From NCBI GenBank assembly GCA_030425485.1, contig JAUIAM010000009.1:1-64000 (forward strand): DNA of 64,000 bases. The letters are read 5' to 3'. A program made the position numbers and the translations under genes. Each line of letters opens with the position of its first letter. Position 1 is the first letter of the stretch. Shown in pieces: positions 38,987 through 46,516 of this stretch. The notes under the pieces were generated by a model. The model was not told where the DNA came from, searched no databases, and saw only the letters and a list, made by a program, of their open reading frames with translations. The DNA is from Verrucomicrobiia bacterium. Its GTDB lineage: Bacteria > Verrucomicrobiota > Verrucomicrobiia > Opitutales > Cerasicoccaceae.

Positions 38987-41900
38987 GTGACACCTACGGT
39001 ACGCACAGTTTCATTTATACTTTTGCTAACTCTTCTTGGCCTGAGTGCGCTTCCGCACAAGGGGCAAGCCCAGGACGCTTCCACCTACACGCTCACTGAG
39101 CTGCAGGACGAGGCCCAGGCGCTCATCGAGTCCAAGTCCTTTGTGGCGGCACGGCCTTTCCTGTCCGAGCTCGTTGCCCGCTTTGAGAACGAGTCCGAAG
39201 AGCTGCGTAAAAACCTCGAGCCGGTCTACTTTTACCTCGGGATCGGCTATATGGTCGAGTACAGTGAGACGCTAAACAAGGAGGAGCTGGCCAAGGCAAC
39301 GGAATGGTTCGTGCGCCTGAACAAGGAATTTCCCGATGGCAAATTCGCGGTCATGTCAAACCTCGCGTTGGCAGACTGCTACCGCGGCCAGCAGAAGTTG
39401 AAGGAGGCCGCCAACGTCTACAAAAGACTCCTTTCGTCGCCGCTTGAGTATCGCCTGAAAGTGTCCGAGCGCGAAGAGTGCCTGCGCAAAATCACCGAAG
39501 CCTACTACGTCGAAAGCGCTTGGGCAGAAGGTGTTCCGTGGTTCAAGCGCTTCCTCGATGAAGCCCGTAGCCCCGACGATCAGGCCGATGCCGCTGCCGC
39601 CCTCATGGAGGCTTATATCGCGCAGGGGATGTTCAACGAGACAATCGCTCTGCTGCCGAGTCTGGTGGGCGACTCTCCCGCCCGCTACAAGCTCAAGCTC
39701 AATGTCGCCCTGATGACTGCCGGGGACAAGCTGGCAACAAACGAGATCCAGCGCTACAACGAGGCCATGCTCATGTACCGCATGGTACTGACGGTTGACG
39801 AGATCCTCGTCTGGCAAGAGGCCCGCCTGGCCGACCTCCAGAGCCAGCTCAACCTCTTGCGCTTAAGCAGCACGACGGTGACGGACCGTGCCGTCGAGCT
39901 GGAGACAGAGATTTTTAACACTCAGGCCCAGATTGATGGCCTGAAGAAAATGCAAAATGAGGGCAAGTCATACACCGCTGACCTCCAACTGCGCATTGCC
40001 CGCACCTACCTTTTGACCGGGCGCGACTGGGAGTCCTTCTACGCCTATTTGGCCCTGATCGAAGCCTATCCCGATCACCCGAACGTGGAAGACTTCCTCT
40101 ACGCGGCCTTTTCCGCCGCTACGGAGCTTCACTTGACCGAGGACGTTATCAAGCTCGGCGAGAAATCGCTCTCCAACCCCAAGTTTAAGAAGTACCAGCC
40201 GGACGTCGCCATTAAGCTGGCCCAGTTCTACCTCGAAGACGAGGAGTATGAGGCATTTTACGTCCTGGCCCAGGATTTCATCTCGAAAAACCCTGACAAC
40301 CGCTACTCGGCCCAGTTTGTCTTCCTGCTCGGTAGCGCTTACATCAAGCAGCAGCGCATCGATGAACTGCTCAATGTCTTTAGCGGATACCTCAAGAAAT
40401 ACAAGGAGCGCCCCGTGCGCGAAGGCTCGCTCTATTGGGTCGGCCTGGGCCAGATCTTCGTTGGTCAATACGTCGAGGCCGAGAAAACCTTTACCACCAT
40501 ACTGGATGAATACAGCGACGGGCCCTACGCCGAGGACGCCCTCTACCGCCGCGGTATTTGCTACTTCGGCCTGCAGGACTATACCCGCGCTCAGGAGGAC
40601 TTGGAAACCTTTGTCGAAAAGTACCCCAACAGTAAGCTGCGTGGTGAAACCGAGTACTTCCTCGGCGACATCAACGCCACACTGGCCAATGTCGGAAAGG
40701 CGCTGAAGCACTACGACAACGTGGAAAAGTACACCAACAGCCGGGAGTACATCCGCAACGCCTATTTCCAGAAGGGCAAACTGCTTGAAGCTAACGAGCG
40801 TTACGCCGAAATGGTGGAGAATTTCCAGCAGTACATGAACAAATACAGGGCGGATGGTGACCTGACCGGGGCGCTCTTTGAACTGGGCCGCGCCCGCGAA
40901 CTCCAGGGCCGCCCCCACGAGATGCTTAGCGAGTACTACGACGGCATCATGCGCTTTGGTAACGATCCCATGGCCTACGGCATTGACCAAATCCTCAACG
41001 CCTACGCGGAAAAGTATGAGTCTAACCGCCTCGAAATCGACGAGTCACTCGCTTTTCTGAAGAAGCTCAAGCAGGACCAGGCCTTCCGGGACAAGTTTAT
41101 CAGCGACCGCGCCTTCATGTTCAGCTATTTTGACGAACATCCGGCCATTACCACAGACGTTCAGGAGATGTTCTACCCGCGCGATTTCCGGGATTCCCTC
41201 AAAAAGGACATGACTCCGGTCAACGACCTGCTGGCCGTTTACCAGAAGCGTGAACAGGACTTTCCGCGCGAGACGCCGGCTGAAACCTTCCGCAAGGGCC
41301 TGACTCAGGCCGAGTCTTCCCAGCAGGAGACGCTTGCCCTGCGTCTTGCCATGGCGCTTGACCGCCTCGACGGCTCCCAGAGCGGACGACTCTTCTCTGA
41401 GCGTGACATCGTTTTCGCCAGCCCCGAAACGCTACTCTGGATTGGTAACAGCGTGAAAGACTACGACGACCAGCTCGCGATCAGTGCCTATAGTACCGTG
41501 GTGGAGTCCCACGTCGGCGCCGAGCAAAGCGTTCTCAATGCCCTGCTCGCGCTCGGCGACCTCTACACGGATACGCAGGATTTCAATCAGGCCATTTACG
41601 CCTATACCGAGGCCGAGAACCGTTTCCCTGCTGACCCGGCTATCGTGCGAGCGGTTTTGGGCAAGGCCAACGCCCTGCTTGAATCGCGCCAGTTTAACAG
41701 TGCCCGCGAGGAGTACGAAAAGGTGGTTGCCCGCCGCGACTGGCGTGGCGAGCCCCAGGCTGAGGCCCTCTTCATGATGGGGCTCTCCTACTACGAGCAG
41801 CAGAAGTGGGAAGAAGCTCAGGCCTATTTTCAACGCGTCTACATCGGTTACTTTGCCTTTGCCGACTGGGCCTCTGCCGCCTATTACTACAGCGGTCAAA

Positions 41901-42022
41901 CCTTGCTCAAGATGGGGGATCGCGATGCGGCCAAGAGAACCTACGAGGAATTCCTTGCAAACGAAGCCTTGCGTGGTTCCGAGTACGACCAGAAAATCCA
42001 AGACGCAATGTCCAACTTGTAA
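38987..42022 (+). CDS. Large periplasmic TPR-repeat protein of a Ton-like operon
   Basis: Starts at GTG 38987 and gives 1011 aa with a signal peptide (FILLLTLLGLSALPHKGQAQ). The rest is almost all helical with many TPR motifs (for example EDALYRRGICYFGLQDYTRAQEDLE, cited as YRRGICYFGLQDYTRA; and EAQAYFQRVYIGYFAFADWA). It should act as a periplasmic scaffold. It is the first gene of a run with tight spacing: its TAA shares an A with the ATG of the next gene, and ExbB, ExbD, ExbD and a TonB-like protein follow. Such TPR plus ExbBD sets occur in several phyla; their job is mostly undefined. Confidence 0.85.
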   Translation: MTPTVRTVSFILLLTLLGLSALPHKGQAQDASTYTLTELQDEAQALIESKSFVAARPFLSELVARFENESEELRKNLEPVYFYLGIGYMVEYSETLNKEELAKATEWFVRLNKEFPDGKFAVMSNLALADCYRGQQKLKEAANVYKRLLSSPLEYRLKVSEREECLRKITEAYYVESAWAEGVPWFKRFLDEARSPDDQADAAAALMEAYIAQGMFNETIALLPSLVGDSPARYKLKLNVALMTAGDKLATNEIQRYNEAMLMYRMVLTVDEILVWQEARLADLQSQLNLLRLSSTTVTDRAVELETEIFNTQAQIDGLKKMQNEGKSYTADLQLRIARTYLLTGRDWESFYAYLALIEAYPDHPNVEDFLYAAFSAATELHLTEDVIKLGEKSLSNPKFKKYQPDVAIKLAQFYLEDEEYEAFYVLAQDFISKNPDNRYSAQFVFLLGSAYIKQQRIDELLNVFSGYLKKYKERPVREGSLYWVGLGQIFVGQYVEAEKTFTTILDEYSDGPYAEDALYRRGICYFGLQDYTRAQEDLETFVEKYPNSKLRGETEYFLGDINATLANVGKALKHYDNVEKYTNSREYIRNAYFQKGKLLEANERYAEMVENFQQYMNKYRADGDLTGALFELGRARELQGRPHEMLSEYYDGIMRFGNDPMAYGIDQILNAYAEKYESNRLEIDESLAFLKKLKQDQAFRDKFISDRAFMFSYFDEHPAITTDVQEMFYPRDFRDSLKKDMTPVNDLLAVYQKREQDFPRETPAETFRKGLTQAESSQQETLALRLAMALDRLDGSQSGRLFSERDIVFASPETLLWIGNSVKDYDDQLAISAYSTVVESHVGAEQSVLNALLALGDLYTDTQDFNQAIYAYTEAENRFPADPAIVRAVLGKANALLESRQFNSAREEYEKVVARRDWRGEPQAEALFMMGLSYYEQQKWEEAQAYFQRVYIGYFAFADWASAAYYYSGQTLLKMGDRDAAKRTYEEFLANEALRGSEYDQKIQDAMSNL

Positions 42023-43134
42023 TGACTCCTTTACGACAGATTGCTTGCCTGCTCGCCCTGGTCATCCCCACGGCGGCCTTTGCCCAAAACAGCTACTTAC
42101 TCGAATACGGGACCAAGCCCGTGCCCGTGCGCAACCGTACCGGCGGCGCGGATACCCAGCTCTACCTCATGGGGGTCGATATGGGCGAGCTCATCCTGCG
42201 TTACGATCCCAACTCGCGCCAGGAGATTGTTATCCCTCTGGACGAGGCCGGCCTGCAGCTTTACTTTGCCCCGCCCAAGGAGTACAACGACCACATCGCT
42301 TTGATTGAGGCGGGCCGCTACGATCGGGCGGTCGATGAGATGCGCAGCTACGCCTATCCGCTCGTGCAGTACATCCAGCTCCCTCCGGAGAATGTAAATT
42401 TCCACCCTATTCTGGAGCGCTTTATCTTTGCCCTGAGCAATAGCAGCCACTTCGACGAGGCGATTGCCATGATGCAGTTCCTGCCCTTTGACTCGATCGA
42501 CCCACGCTACGTCAACTATGCTTTTACGGTGACGGAGCGCCTTGTCGATGCGGGCCGCACCAACGATGCCCTTGCTCTGCTCAACCGCCTGCCTATCGAT
42601 GAGTCCCGCGCCGAGCTCCTGCCCAAGCTCATGAACTTTGCCAATCGCCAGCGCGAAGCCGGTAACATGACTGAGGCGCTCTTCCTCTACGAACGCATCC
42701 AGGCCGTACGTAATTCGGATCTGGCCGACGAGGCCACCCTCTGGACCGCCTACTGCAACCTGGAGATGAGCAACGTCGAGAAGGCCAAGCTCTTTGTGGA
42801 GATGGTGGGCCCCTTCCAGCCTGAGCAGGCCGCTTATGCGCTGGAAAAGCTGGTGCAGGGCCGCATTTATCTCGAGCAGGGGGACGACTTTGAAGCTATG
42901 CGCAACATCACGCAGGGTGTTGTGGCTGGTAGCGTGAGCGACTCCGCTATGCCCGAGTTGCTTTACCTGAGTGCCACGCTCTACGAGGGCAGAGAAAAGC
43001 CCGATGTGGCCCGCGAAATTTACGGCGAAGTCGATCTCTTCTACACCCGTACATCATGGGGAGAGAAGAGCCGCGAGCGCCTGGCCGAGCTACCCGCTCC
43101 TACCCCGGAAGAGAGCACCGAGGCCACCCAGTAA
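42022..43134 (+). CDS. Exported TPR-like protein of the Ton-like operon
   Basis: Start at ATG 42022, overlapping the previous TAA as TAATG, which points to coupled translation. The 370-aa product has a signal peptide (MTPLRQIACLLALVIPTAAFAQ), a short beta-rich part (LYLMGVDMGELILRYDPNSR, ~residues 45-75), then helical repeats. I recognise no specific family. ExbB follows after 43 bp. Confidence 0.8.
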   Translation: MTPLRQIACLLALVIPTAAFAQNSYLLEYGTKPVPVRNRTGGADTQLYLMGVDMGELILRYDPNSRQEIVIPLDEAGLQLYFAPPKEYNDHIALIEAGRYDRAVDEMRSYAYPLVQYIQLPPENVNFHPILERFIFALSNSSHFDEAIAMMQFLPFDSIDPRYVNYAFTVTERLVDAGRTNDALALLNRLPIDESRAELLPKLMNFANRQREAGNMTEALFLYERIQAVRNSDLADEATLWTAYCNLEMSNVEKAKLFVEMVGPFQPEQAAYALEKLVQGRIYLEQGDDFEAMRNITQGVVAGSVSDSAMPELLYLSATLYEGREKPDVAREIYGEVDLFYTRTSWGEKSRERLAELPAPTPEESTEATQ

Positions 43135-43177
43135 CCCCTTTCACTATCCTGAATTTTCAACCTGAAACCTGAGTCAT

Positions 43178-43972
43178 ATGTATTACCTGAAACCATTCAT
43201 CCTGACGCTTGCCGTGGCTTTCGCTGCCCTTTTTGCCGCGCCTTACACCGCTTCTGCGCAAGATAGCGAAGAGCCCGCTGCCGCGGAAACTACCCCTGCC
43301 GAAGGCGAAGAGGACGCCAATGTGGCCGCAAGCAAGACGGTCTGGGGCTACTTCCAGGCGGGTGGTCCGGCCATGTATGTGCTGCTGCTTTTCTCCGTTT
43401 GCGGTGTTGGCCTGATTATCTACAACTTCCTCATGATCCGGCCCAAGCCGTTTCTGCGCCCCGACCTGGTCGAGCAGCTTGAGCCCGCGCTGGAGAACCT
43501 GCAGTTCGACGAGGCCCGCCGCATCTGCGACGAAAACCCCTCCGTCATTACGAACATCATCAGTGCCGGCATGGACCGTATCGATGGCGAGCACATCGAC
43601 CCGGAAGCCATGAAGGAGGCTATGGAAGAGTCTTCCACCGAAGAGCTCGCGGCTCCCTTCATCATGATTAACATGCTTTCGCTCGTGGCTACGCTTTCCC
43701 CGATGGTGGGTCTGCTCGGTACCGTTTCCGGTATGGTTAAGGCCTTCGACGCCATCGCCGCACAGGGCATGGGTAACCCGCAGGGCCTGAGCTCGAACAT
43801 CTCCGAGGCTCTTATCACCACGGCCAGCGGTCTTATCGTCGCCATCCCGGCCATGTTCTTCTACATCTTCTTCAAGAACACCTACGGCAAGATTTCCTCA
43901 CGGGTGGACAAGCAGGTCGGTGACCTCTTCCACGCCATCATGAAGGGTATCCGCCGCCACACCGCGTCCTAG
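43178..43972 (+). CDS. exbB: MotA/TolQ/ExbB proton channel protein
   Basis: A 264-aa proton-channel subunit. An N-terminal signal peptide (ending TASAQ) and an acidic Ala/Pro linker (~residues 28-55) precede helix 1 (AMYVLLLFSVCGVGLIIYNF). The ExbB core has LSLVATLSPMVGLLGTVSGMVKAF and ITTASGLIVAIPAMFFYIFF. This is ExbB/TolQ chemistry: with ExbD it turns proton flow into motion of a TonB-like rod. The signal peptide puts the extended N-terminus outside. Confidence 0.92.
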   Translation: MYYLKPFILTLAVAFAALFAAPYTASAQDSEEPAAAETTPAEGEEDANVAASKTVWGYFQAGGPAMYVLLLFSVCGVGLIIYNFLMIRPKPFLRPDLVEQLEPALENLQFDEARRICDENPSVITNIISAGMDRIDGEHIDPEAMKEAMEESSTEELAAPFIMINMLSLVATLSPMVGLLGTVSGMVKAFDAIAAQGMGNPQGLSSNISEALITTASGLIVAIPAMFFYIFFKNTYGKISSRVDKQVGDLFHAIMKGIRRHTAS

Positions 43973-43993
43973 CGCACACTCAGGAGTACAGGC

Positions 43994-44392
43994 ATGAAAG
44001 CACGCCGCCCAGAAACGCCAGACCAGGAGTTTGACATCACGCCGATGATCGACGTGGTCTTCCTGCTCATTGTCTTCTTCATGGTCGTGGCTGCGCAAAT
44101 CACCGAAAAGGTGGAGATTGTCGTCCCCACGGCGGACAAGGCCGTCGTACCCGAGGACAATAGCCGTCGTCTCGAGGTTACCGTGGTTGAAAATGGTGAC
44201 GCCTACGTGGGCATGATGCCCGTTTCCCGCGAGGCGTTGGCAGCCCGCGTCCTGCAGGACAACAACACCGTCCCGGGCTTTCGGGTCTACCTGCGCGCAG
44301 ACTCGAACACCCCGCACAAACACATTCAGGAGATTATGATGCTCTGCGCCGAAAACGGGGTTTACGACGTCATCTTCGCCACCCTTCAGTAG
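43994..44392 (+). CDS. exbD: ExbD/TolR biopolymer transport protein, first copy
   Basis: A 132-aa single-helix protein with the conserved proton-carrying Asp in FDITPMIDVVFLLIVFFMV. The periplasmic domain (~residues 45-132) ends in CAENGVYDVIFATLQ, as in ExbD. It lies 21 bp after exbB. A second ExbD follows after 9 bp; two ExbDs per operon are usual in this kind of locus. Confidence 0.92.
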   Translation: MKARRPETPDQEFDITPMIDVVFLLIVFFMVVAAQITEKVEIVVPTADKAVVPEDNSRRLEVTVVENGDAYVGMMPVSREALAARVLQDNNTVPGFRVYLRADSNTPHKHIQEIMMLCAENGVYDVIFATLQ

Positions 44393-44401
44393 AAAACAGA
44401 C

Positions 44402-44833
44402 ATGTCCAAACGTAAGCGACCCGATGCCCTGTCCGAGGAGCAAAAAGCCGATCTCACCCCGATGATCGACGTGGTGTTCCTCATGCTGGCCTTCTTTATG
44501 GTGACGACGGATCTGACTCAGGAGGCCGACCTGGGGCTCAAGCTCCCGGCCAATGTTCCGCCGGACCCTACCGTGCAGCTTCCCAATGAGCACGTGGTCG
44601 ACATCGAGCCCAGCGGGCAGGTTTTCCTCAACGGCATCCCCATGGACGCCGTGAGCAGCCGCACCATGCCACAGCTGGTTAACACCCTGCGCCGCCTGAA
44701 GGCTTCCGCCGGTGATGTGAAGACCGCGGTGACCATCATGGCCGACCCGGAGTCGCTTCACCAGCGCTCCATAGATGTCATGAATGCTTGCGCTCAGGCA
44801 GAAATCAAGTATGTTTCCTTCTCCGCAGAGTAG
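44402..44833 (+). CDS. exbD: ExbD/TolR biopolymer transport protein, second copy
   Basis: A 143-aa paralogue with LTPMIDVVFLMLAFFMVTT (proton Asp kept) and a periplasmic domain. It differs from the first copy in the helix after the Asp. The two may form a hetero-dimer in the ExbB ring; that is inference. The next gene begins 2 bp after its stop. Confidence 0.92.
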   Translation: MSKRKRPDALSEEQKADLTPMIDVVFLMLAFFMVTTDLTQEADLGLKLPANVPPDPTVQLPNEHVVDIEPSGQVFLNGIPMDAVSSRTMPQLVNTLRRLKASAGDVKTAVTIMADPESLHQRSIDVMNACAQAEIKYVSFSAE

Positions 44834-44835
44834 CT

Positions 44836-45222
44836 ATGGCTAACATTGTAAAAAAGCTCCTCCACACCCGTATGCGCGTCGATGACCTCGACCGCACCGT
44901 CGATTTTTACAAAGACGTGCTCGGCCTCGAAGAGATCAACCGCAAGGAGTCTCCCCGCGGCAGCAAGCTCGTTTTCCTCAAGGTTCCCGGCAGCGAAGAG
45001 CTGCTCGAGATCACTTACTTCCCGGATTCCGGTCCGGTCCAGGTGCAGGAGGATCTCATGCACCTCGCCTTCGAGGTCGAAGACCTTGAGGCTTTTGGCC
45101 AGCATCTGGCCAAGTTTGGCCTGTCCTTTTCAGACGGCCCCACCAAGAGCTCGTCCGGCACCTTTGCCTTTATCGATGCCCCCGAGGGCTACGAGATCGA
45201 GCTGATCGCCTACGACAAATGA
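44836..45222 (+). CDS. gloA: VOC-family metalloenzyme, glyoxalase I-like
   Basis: From ATG 44836 the protein has 128 aa (an earlier in-frame ATG lies within exbD). It has the two betaalphabetabetabeta modules of the VOC fold and a complete metal-ligand set: His10 in LLHTRMRV, a Glu in EELLEITYF, a His in LMHLAFEV and a Glu in YEIELIAY. It fits lactoylglutathione lyase, which clears methylglyoxal. Its place between exbD and the TonB-like gene (4 bp on each side or less) is odd for a cytoplasmic detox enzyme. Confidence 0.86.
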   Translation: MANIVKKLLHTRMRVDDLDRTVDFYKDVLGLEEINRKESPRGSKLVFLKVPGSEELLEITYFPDSGPVQVQEDLMHLAFEVEDLEAFGQHLAKFGLSFSDGPTKSSSGTFAFIDAPEGYEIELIAYDK

Positions 45223-45226
45223 AGCC

Positions 45227-46516
45227 ATGAAAAAGCGCAAAGTTAACCTGCCCCTTATCGAGGTGATTATTGTCAGCCTCATCGTTCACGTCGTGGCCAT
45301 CGTGGTGCTGGGCGGTATCACCATTTACACCGCCCTCATGCCGGAAGAGCCGGAGTTGGAGGCACCACCACCGCCGGAGCGCATCGAGCCACAGAAGCTC
45401 CAGCACAAGGTGCAACTCCAGAAGCAGCAGAAAAAGAGCCAGCGCCCGCCGCAGAAAATTACGGTTCAGCAGGTTTCTCAAATCAACATGCCCACGCTGG
45501 ACCTCGACATCCCTACCGTGGACACGCGTGTCTCCGTGGGTACGGCTAACTTCGCCGGAGCTGGTGGCATCGGCGGAAATCGCGGCGGAGCTGGCATTGA
45601 GTTCAGTAAATCTTCGGTCGACTTCTTCGGGATTAAATCCTCGGGTGAACGCGTCTTCTTCATCGTGGATGCCAGTAAGTACATGCTTGTGGACGAAAAA
45701 GGCGGTATCCCTGCCTACAACATCATTAAGGACGAGATCACGATGATGGTGAACAAGCTCGCCCCCGGTACACTGTTTAACGTCATGTTTTACGACGGCA
45801 GTAAGTTGTCCTCTTTCTCCAGTAAGCTCATTCCCGCAACCACGCAGAACAAGGAGCGCTTTAAGGCTTGGATTCAGCCCATCAACAAGGACTTTGCTTC
45901 TATCGGAAAGCTGAAAAGCAACACCGATATCGTAACCAAGGACATTGAGCCGATGACGGACAAGCCCCGGTACTGGGTGCGTGCGCTTCAGTCTGCGATG
46001 GAGCAGGGGAGTGATACGATCAACATCCTCGTCTCAAGTTGGCAGTTCCACGGCCGCGGCCTCAAGGGTGATGAGCTCACCGCATGGTACAAGTCTGTTG
46101 GCTGGGGCGAAAAAGAAGAGGCCGAATGGGACGCGCACGTCAAGAAGGCTCAAGAGTGGCTGAAAAACGAAAACAAGAAACGTCGCGATGCAGGAAAGCC
46201 CGAGCGCGTCGTAACGTGGATTGGTACGGTTGTCTCTGAGCAGTGGCCTAAGGTACGCCGTAAGCCCGCCGCTAGCTTCTCTGTCGAGGAGGTCATGGAT
46301 CATATTGATGAGGTTTCCGATATCTATTATCGTGACCAGGACCTGCGCCGTCCGCCGGTCAATGTCGTGCTCTTCCTTGGAAAGGAGCAGGATCCTGATT
46401 CCAGCAGCAGTGCCCGACACTTCGAAGACCTGGTCCGCAAGAATCGTGGCCGGATGCAAATTCTCGAGGGCATGGAGGCCCTGAAGAACGTTACCGGTGC
46501 TCAGGGCAGCAGCTAG
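45227..46516 (+). CDS. TonB-like single-helix protein with degenerate VWA domain
   Basis: A 429-aa protein. A short cytoplasmic start and one helix (~residues 9-37, IEVIIVSLIVHVVAIVVLGG) are followed by a Pro/Gln/Lys-rich rod (PPPPERIEPQKLQHK...), as in TonB and TolA. A Gly-rich stretch (~105-125) then leads to a VWA-like domain (ERVFFIVDASKYMLVDEKGG). The MIDAS motif DxSxS is altered to DASKY, so metal binding may be lost. There is no TonB C-terminal domain. It is the last gene of the operon; its end overlaps the convergent ogg1 by 4 bp. Confidence 0.8.
   Translation: MKKRKVNLPLIEVIIVSLIVHVVAIVVLGGITIYTALMPEEPELEAPPPPERIEPQKLQHKVQLQKQQKKSQRPPQKITVQQVSQINMPTLDLDIPTVDTRVSVGTANFAGAGGIGGNRGGAGIEFSKSSVDFFGIKSSGERVFFIVDASKYMLVDEKGGIPAYNIIKDEITMMVNKLAPGTLFNVMFYDGSKLSSFSSKLIPATTQNKERFKAWIQPINKDFASIGKLKSNTDIVTKDIEPMTDKPRYWVRALQSAMEQGSDTINILVSSWQFHGRGLKGDELTAWYKSVGWGEKEEAEWDAHVKKAQEWLKNENKKRRDAGKPERVVTWIGTVVSEQWPKVRRKPAASFSVEEVMDHIDEVSDIYYRDQDLRRPPVNVVLFLGKEQDPDSSSSARHFEDLVRKNRGRMQILEGMEALKNVTGAQGSS

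Follow-up and report, generated by a model that had tools for sequence, protein, structure and literature searches.

A conserved operon of Verrucomicrobiota that probably encodes a vWA-class envelope force transducer powered by the proton motive force

We found that six genes of a Verrucomicrobiia bacterium, encoding two TPR proteins (TPR1 and TPR2), an ExbB, two ExbDs, and a membrane-anchored rod with a VWA-fold head, form a conserved operon, which we judge with a probability of about 0.78 to encode a trans-envelope force transducer of the vWA class that is driven by the proton motive force (PMF). The operon lies in the window, i.e., the whole stretch of 64,000 nucleotides that was analysed (contig JAUIAM010000009.1 of assembly GCA_030425485.1). 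As an earlier note on this DNA had described, seven genes follow one another on one strand with small gaps or overlaps, and all seven open reading frames were present on the plus strand exactly where that note had placed them. The first, TPR1 (38987..42022), opens with a GTG start codon at 38987 and encodes a large exported TPR solenoid of 1011 aa (Pfam TPR_6, 1.4e-27). The ATG of TPR2 at 42022 overlaps the TPR1 stop codon (TAATG), and the gene (42022..43134) encodes an exported protein of 370 aa that in its AlphaFold2 fold joins a small N-terminal beta domain to TPR-type helices. These are followed by an ExbB/TolQ-like motor subunit (43178..43972; PF01618, 1.1e-29), an ExbD1/TolR-like gene (43994..44392; PF02472, 1.4e-24), a second, distinct ExbD2/TolR-like gene (44402..44833; PF02472, 6.5e-23), an optional VOC/glyoxalase I-like gene (44836..45222; PF00903, 1.4e-20), and the rod of 429 aa (45227..46516), which consists of a TM helix, a linker, and the VWA-fold head (AlphaFold2, VIA). 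Across the seven genes, Pfam thus returned TPR, MotA_ExbB, two ExbD, and glyoxalase/VOC domains, and left the rod without a match. Pfam and the TPR2 fold bore out the two TPR proteins, two ExbDs, and glyoxalase-like gene of the earlier note; as for its claims of export and of an ExbB with its own signal peptide, the N-termini of TPR1, TPR2, and ExbB appear signal-peptide-like upon reading of the sequence, and the same recurs in relatives. The operon is flanked by opposite-strand genes of LptF/LptG-like and OGG type (Pfam), and the neighbours of the operon and its orthologs include LptG-like, OGG, ABC-F-like, and RecN-like genes.

The gene order, whose absence in relatives the earlier note had named as a result that would speak against its proposal, turned out to be widely kept. 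A rod relative occurs in 58 of the 103 genomes of the order (search with P0004), and at E 1e-30 the TPR1 profile has matches in 74 of the 251 good genomes examined from the phylum; an initial scan of genome contigs with only the rod as query gave no relatives, which the TPR1 alignment did find. We compared 49 order-level loci that were untruncated, non-redundant, and high-scoring for TPR1: the series TPR1-TPR2-ExbB-ExbD1-ExbD2-(VOC)-rod was complete in 28, TPR1-TPR2-rod occurred without adjacent ExbBD in 14, and an adjacent recognisable rod was absent in 7. Median gaps along the operon were -1, 49.5, 29, 3, and 24 bases. Beyond the order, in 16 further phylum-wide loci that were picked by their TPR1 match alone, the rod followed ExbD2 in 14. 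Because this order is maintained at 25-35% identity over many families, the arrangement is not due to chance.

The VOC gene behaves differently from the other six. It stands beside the operon in few lineages only (the window, L149, L034/L085, which are one locus, L167, and L217), at a position that varies between before and after the rod. We conclude that its association with the operon is old but optional, and the earlier note's inclusion of it as an integral part did not hold; as a core part, it was rejected. The product aligns to E. coli glyoxalase I (1f9z, E 1.1e-13) and to other solved glyoxalase I structures but falls below the NCBIfam glyoxalase cut-off; its role as an enzyme is putative.

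The rod has the architecture of a transducer. Its AlphaFold2 model, built with 20 relatives (mean pLDDT 80.5), displays a TM helix at residues 8-37, a short helix at 55-70, disorder at 72-126, and a well-predicted domain from ~127 onward, with a VWA fold at residues 127-425. The linker (residues 38-126, i.e., ~90 residues) contains 11 Pro and has a pLDDT below 50 at 72-126. In line with the VWA-like domain of the earlier note, the head compares best with inter-alpha-inhibitor heavy chain 1 (VIA Z 17.1, rmsd 2.4, 168 residues), with the VWA domains of Rpn10 and TFIIH ranking just after it, and the domain contains an inserted helical stretch. The rod yielded no match in Pfam, NCBIfam, or a PDB sequence profile; sequence profiles being silent, it is the predicted structure that identifies the head as VWA. 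The TM helix carries S17, H21, L28, and T32, where a Thr takes the place of the last Ser, at a spacing that we take to be that of the SHLS motif of TonB and TolA. The motif His was present in 40/40 alignable ExbB-linked rods as well as in 18/18 alignable stand-alone rods. D148, the first MIDAS Asp, is invariant in alignment A1, and the full DxSxS motif was found in 1 of ~56 scorable long rods and is retained in several short paralogs, where these counts are approximate since the motif was located by a simple pattern. With this metal site missing, metal-dependent ligand binding by the head is unlikely. As a side observation, an Akkermansiaceae genome carries, separate from its TPR1 cassette (L147), an ExbB-ExbD-ExbD-VWA rod operon (L209) whose rod of 339 aa has an apparently intact DxSxS metal site.

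The motor genes retain the residues expected of a working motor. The window ExbB could be aligned with solved structures of ExbB and of TolQ; its T182, E210, and T215 are conserved, and the GTV...EAL..T motif is present in 60/60 relatives; we presume this motif to be the site of the functional Thr/Glu/Thr of ExbB. ExbD1 was aligned to solved ExbD/TolR and ExbD2 to solved ExbD, which placed the proton-site Asp at Asp20 and Asp23, respectively, and the Asp motif recurs in 57 of 59 ExbD1 and 53 of 59 ExbD2. Together with the conserved docking motif, these residues support the earlier expectation that ExbBD would energise the rod. By analogy with Ton/Tol biology, an expected ExbB pentamer and an ExbD1/ExbD2 pair would form the inner-membrane motor, and the rod would dock on ExbB with the Ser/His/Leu/Thr motif of its TM helix, as TonB and TolA do. 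PMF would then power the motor such that the rod pulls or rotates its head, which the flexible linker of ~90 residues could carry into or across the periplasm, where the head may bind a partner in the periplasm or at the outer membrane. The two TPR proteins would be periplasmic solenoids, most likely a scaffold or hub that is pulled by the head or that places the machine.

This architecture has been described before. The accessible part of Williams-Jones et al. 2025 (PMC12204202) reports a family of vWA force transducers with synteny in the PVC group, which have a TMH with an SHLS motif, a proline-rich/disordered linker of ~100 residues, a vWA head, and no TonB CTD, and whose genes are preceded by TPR and tolQ-like genes and by two different tolR-like genes; their function is given there as unknown. 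As far as this description goes, the window operon shares the SHLS-type TM helix, the linker, the vWA fold, and the TPR/tolQ/two-tolR synteny, and the conserved motor residues would fit the PMF-driven force transduction of that class. Hence, the operon is a member of this vWA class, and the proposal in the earlier note of an undescribed machine has to be withdrawn. Compared to the same part of the source, our data extend the description by a second conserved TPR gene and an optional VOC gene, a degenerate MIDAS, a lineage with a separated motor and a lost rod His, exchangeable heads, including relatives whose operon has a toroid head in the same place, and paralogous rods close to genes for glycan degradation. 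The source also treats a TPH-vWA/TolQ class, in which, as here, a vWA domain is driven by a TolQ-like motor; as described there, however, that class has no ExbD/TolR, no SHLS, and an Asp-bearing TPH in the vWA protein, whereas the window operon has two ExbDs and an SHLS-type motif. A role in gliding is proposed by analogy in PMC12204202, and the operon could accordingly be imagined to drive surface motility or secretion, like the Agl or Gld/Por motors. TPR1 does match the T9SS protein PorW/SprE, but at 51.6 bits this match is far under the cut-off of 250, and no component of a gliding or T9SS machinery was seen adjoining the operon; we regard such a drive as improbable.

The same operon content separates the vWA-class transducer from the two classical systems. 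With TonB-ExbB-ExbD, it has the ExbB/ExbD residues and the TM docking motif in common, and one could regard it as an ordinary TonB system with a diverged TonB. Yet, Pfam found no TonB_C domain on the rod, whose head is predicted to be a VWA fold instead, and the operon has no nearby receptor, two different ExbDs, and two TPR proteins. Elsewhere in the genome, a canonical TonB_C gene occurs with ExbB, ExbD, and a nearby receptor gene on contig C43, which also holds the sole plug-domain match of the genome; further TonB_C matches were confined to C54. No TonB-dependent receptor or TonB_C domain was found on the contig of the operon, and the claims of the earlier note that both are missing here thus stand. 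A diverged TonB was rejected on operon content and is contradicted by the predicted head fold, which leaves it a very slim chance. With Tol-Pal (TolQRA-TolB-Pal-CpoB), the operon shares a TolQ/TolR-like motor and a partly CpoB-like TPR protein, but it lacks the TolA CTD and starts with the TPR genes; no TolB was found among the seven genes and their neighbours, and no OmpA/Pal family match in the seven genes (Pfam, NCBIfam). A Tol-Pal operon was rejected on this content. The genome contains 8 MotA/ExbB-family genes; C54 carries a TonB_2/TolA-like gene accompanied by ExbB/ExbD, and C60 has a strong TolB-like match. Since separate TonB_C/receptor and TolB-like loci exist, the window operon is an additional, third Ton/Tol-like motor. 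The same genome also holds a distant second TPR1-like/284-aa/ExbB cassette (L205, C39:9000-25000), with a DUF4159 gene and a repeat protein upstream and no rod seen adjacent.

A lineage in which motor and rod have parted bears on the partner of the head. In the f17 lineage (L199, L200, L201; L048, L049, L088-L098), TPR1-TPR2-rod stands without adjacent ExbBD. The same ExbB-ExbD1-ExbD2 subtype was found elsewhere in the genome in the three f17 genomes checked, where the relocated ExbB scores 321-330 and most of the other scored ExbB genes stay <90. The motif His of the f17 rods is replaced in 17/17 cases (Gln in 16, Met in 1), probably in one evolutionary event, and given this replacement, docking of the rod may differ in this lineage. 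Because the TPR genes remain linked to the rod even where the motor moved away, TPR1 and TPR2 are the leading candidates for the partner of the head, and the large TPR protein is a plausible target of the rod. TPR1 is the first gene of the operon, a position conserved in relatives, and TPR2 orthologs occur in all high-score TPR1 operons at the order level. The TPR2 model has a pLDDT of 88, with TPR fold matches that span residues 96-367, and its fold search returned generic TPR proteins and nothing more specific.

What the vWA-class transducer does is the least certain part of our reading; we favour a job in which large cargo is moved or remodelled at the outer membrane, and we give similar odds to glycan acquisition and to maintenance of the envelope as its ultimate purpose. 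It may be a Tol-like envelope-integrity machine, whose motor and rod would work on the outer membrane or the peptidoglycan while the cell grows or divides, with TPR1 as the CpoB. TPR1 indeed scores above the cut-off for NCBIfam CpoB/YbgF-type and BamD-type TPR models, though such models match many TPR proteins; the operon is present in small genomes of 1.3-1.7 Mb (G010, G065, G079), as expected of a core function, and it adjoins housekeeping rather than nutrient genes. Given the separate TolB-like and TonB_2/TolA-like loci and an operon without Pal or TolB, we hold this task to be a real but minority possibility. We place at the same level a machine that powers polysaccharide acquisition through the outer membrane by a route other than SusCD/TonB receptors, in which the dispersed rods would be substrate-specific transducers on one motor. 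Polymer uptake into the periplasm is known from Verrucomicrobiota; in Akkermansia, it depends on mul genes, including a periplasmic protein complex (PMC13174399, PMC12928651). The own genome encodes just one receptor with a plug domain.

Paralogs of the operon hint at a link to glycans. The cassette TPR1-TPR2-ExbB-ExbD1-ExbD2 recurs in paralogous form in L131-L134, L139, L141, L145, L157, and others, and at L134:3767-20262 it lies in a starch-type cluster, downstream of an alpha-amylase gene and followed by genes that, by sequence reading only, resemble malQ and a sugar transporter. Near stand-alone rods, 8/20 genes had a GH/CBM domain above the Pfam cut-off, versus 1/20 random control genes (Fisher p 0.02), a small enrichment that concerns paralogs in GH-rich genomes with partly non-independent loci. 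The near-rod genes were picked before annotation and the controls came from random places in the same genome group, under non-identical rules. The glycan link of the stand-alone rods is thus suggestive and applies to paralogs only; against it as the task of the window operon, no glycan genes were found next to the operon or its orthologs, and the statistics are modest. After ExbD2, L134 (as well as L131-L133, L139, and L141) encodes a divergent rod along with a ~283-aa exported protein that has no Pfam match.

The head of the rod is exchangeable. At the same operon position, L151:15798-17477, L224:7923-9809, and L226:2877-4748 encode rods of ~560-630 aa with toroid rather than VWA heads, which match squalene-hopene cyclase/prenyltransferase above the Pfam cut-off in L151 and L224 and just under it in L226. 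Short VWA heads occur in L227-L229, and a PA14 match on an alternative head in L225 (E 0.018) is weak and carries no weight. Since other heads occupy the rod position, the five-gene cassette is the constant part and the head the exchangeable one. One could go further and view the cassette as a motor and scaffold shared across the phylum by exchangeable heads (VWA, squalene-cyclase-like toroid), with more rods in glycan clusters, which together would constitute a TonB-receptor-independent, PMF-driven polysaccharide acquisition of Verrucomicrobiota; we consider this rather unlikely as a whole and put it forward tentatively. Although Verrucomicrobiota bring large glycans into their periplasm, one plug-domain receptor is all that the own genome shows. 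A conserved third motor whose heads can be exchanged, with two co-inherited scaffolds and with paralogs beside glycan enzymes, is a testable candidate driver of outer-membrane traffic in the phylum and would broaden the known range of tasks of 5:2-type motors. Among the rod arrangements, L222:2231-5110 carries two tandem rods behind a single motor cassette, and L124 and L174 have several rod matches after ExbD2.
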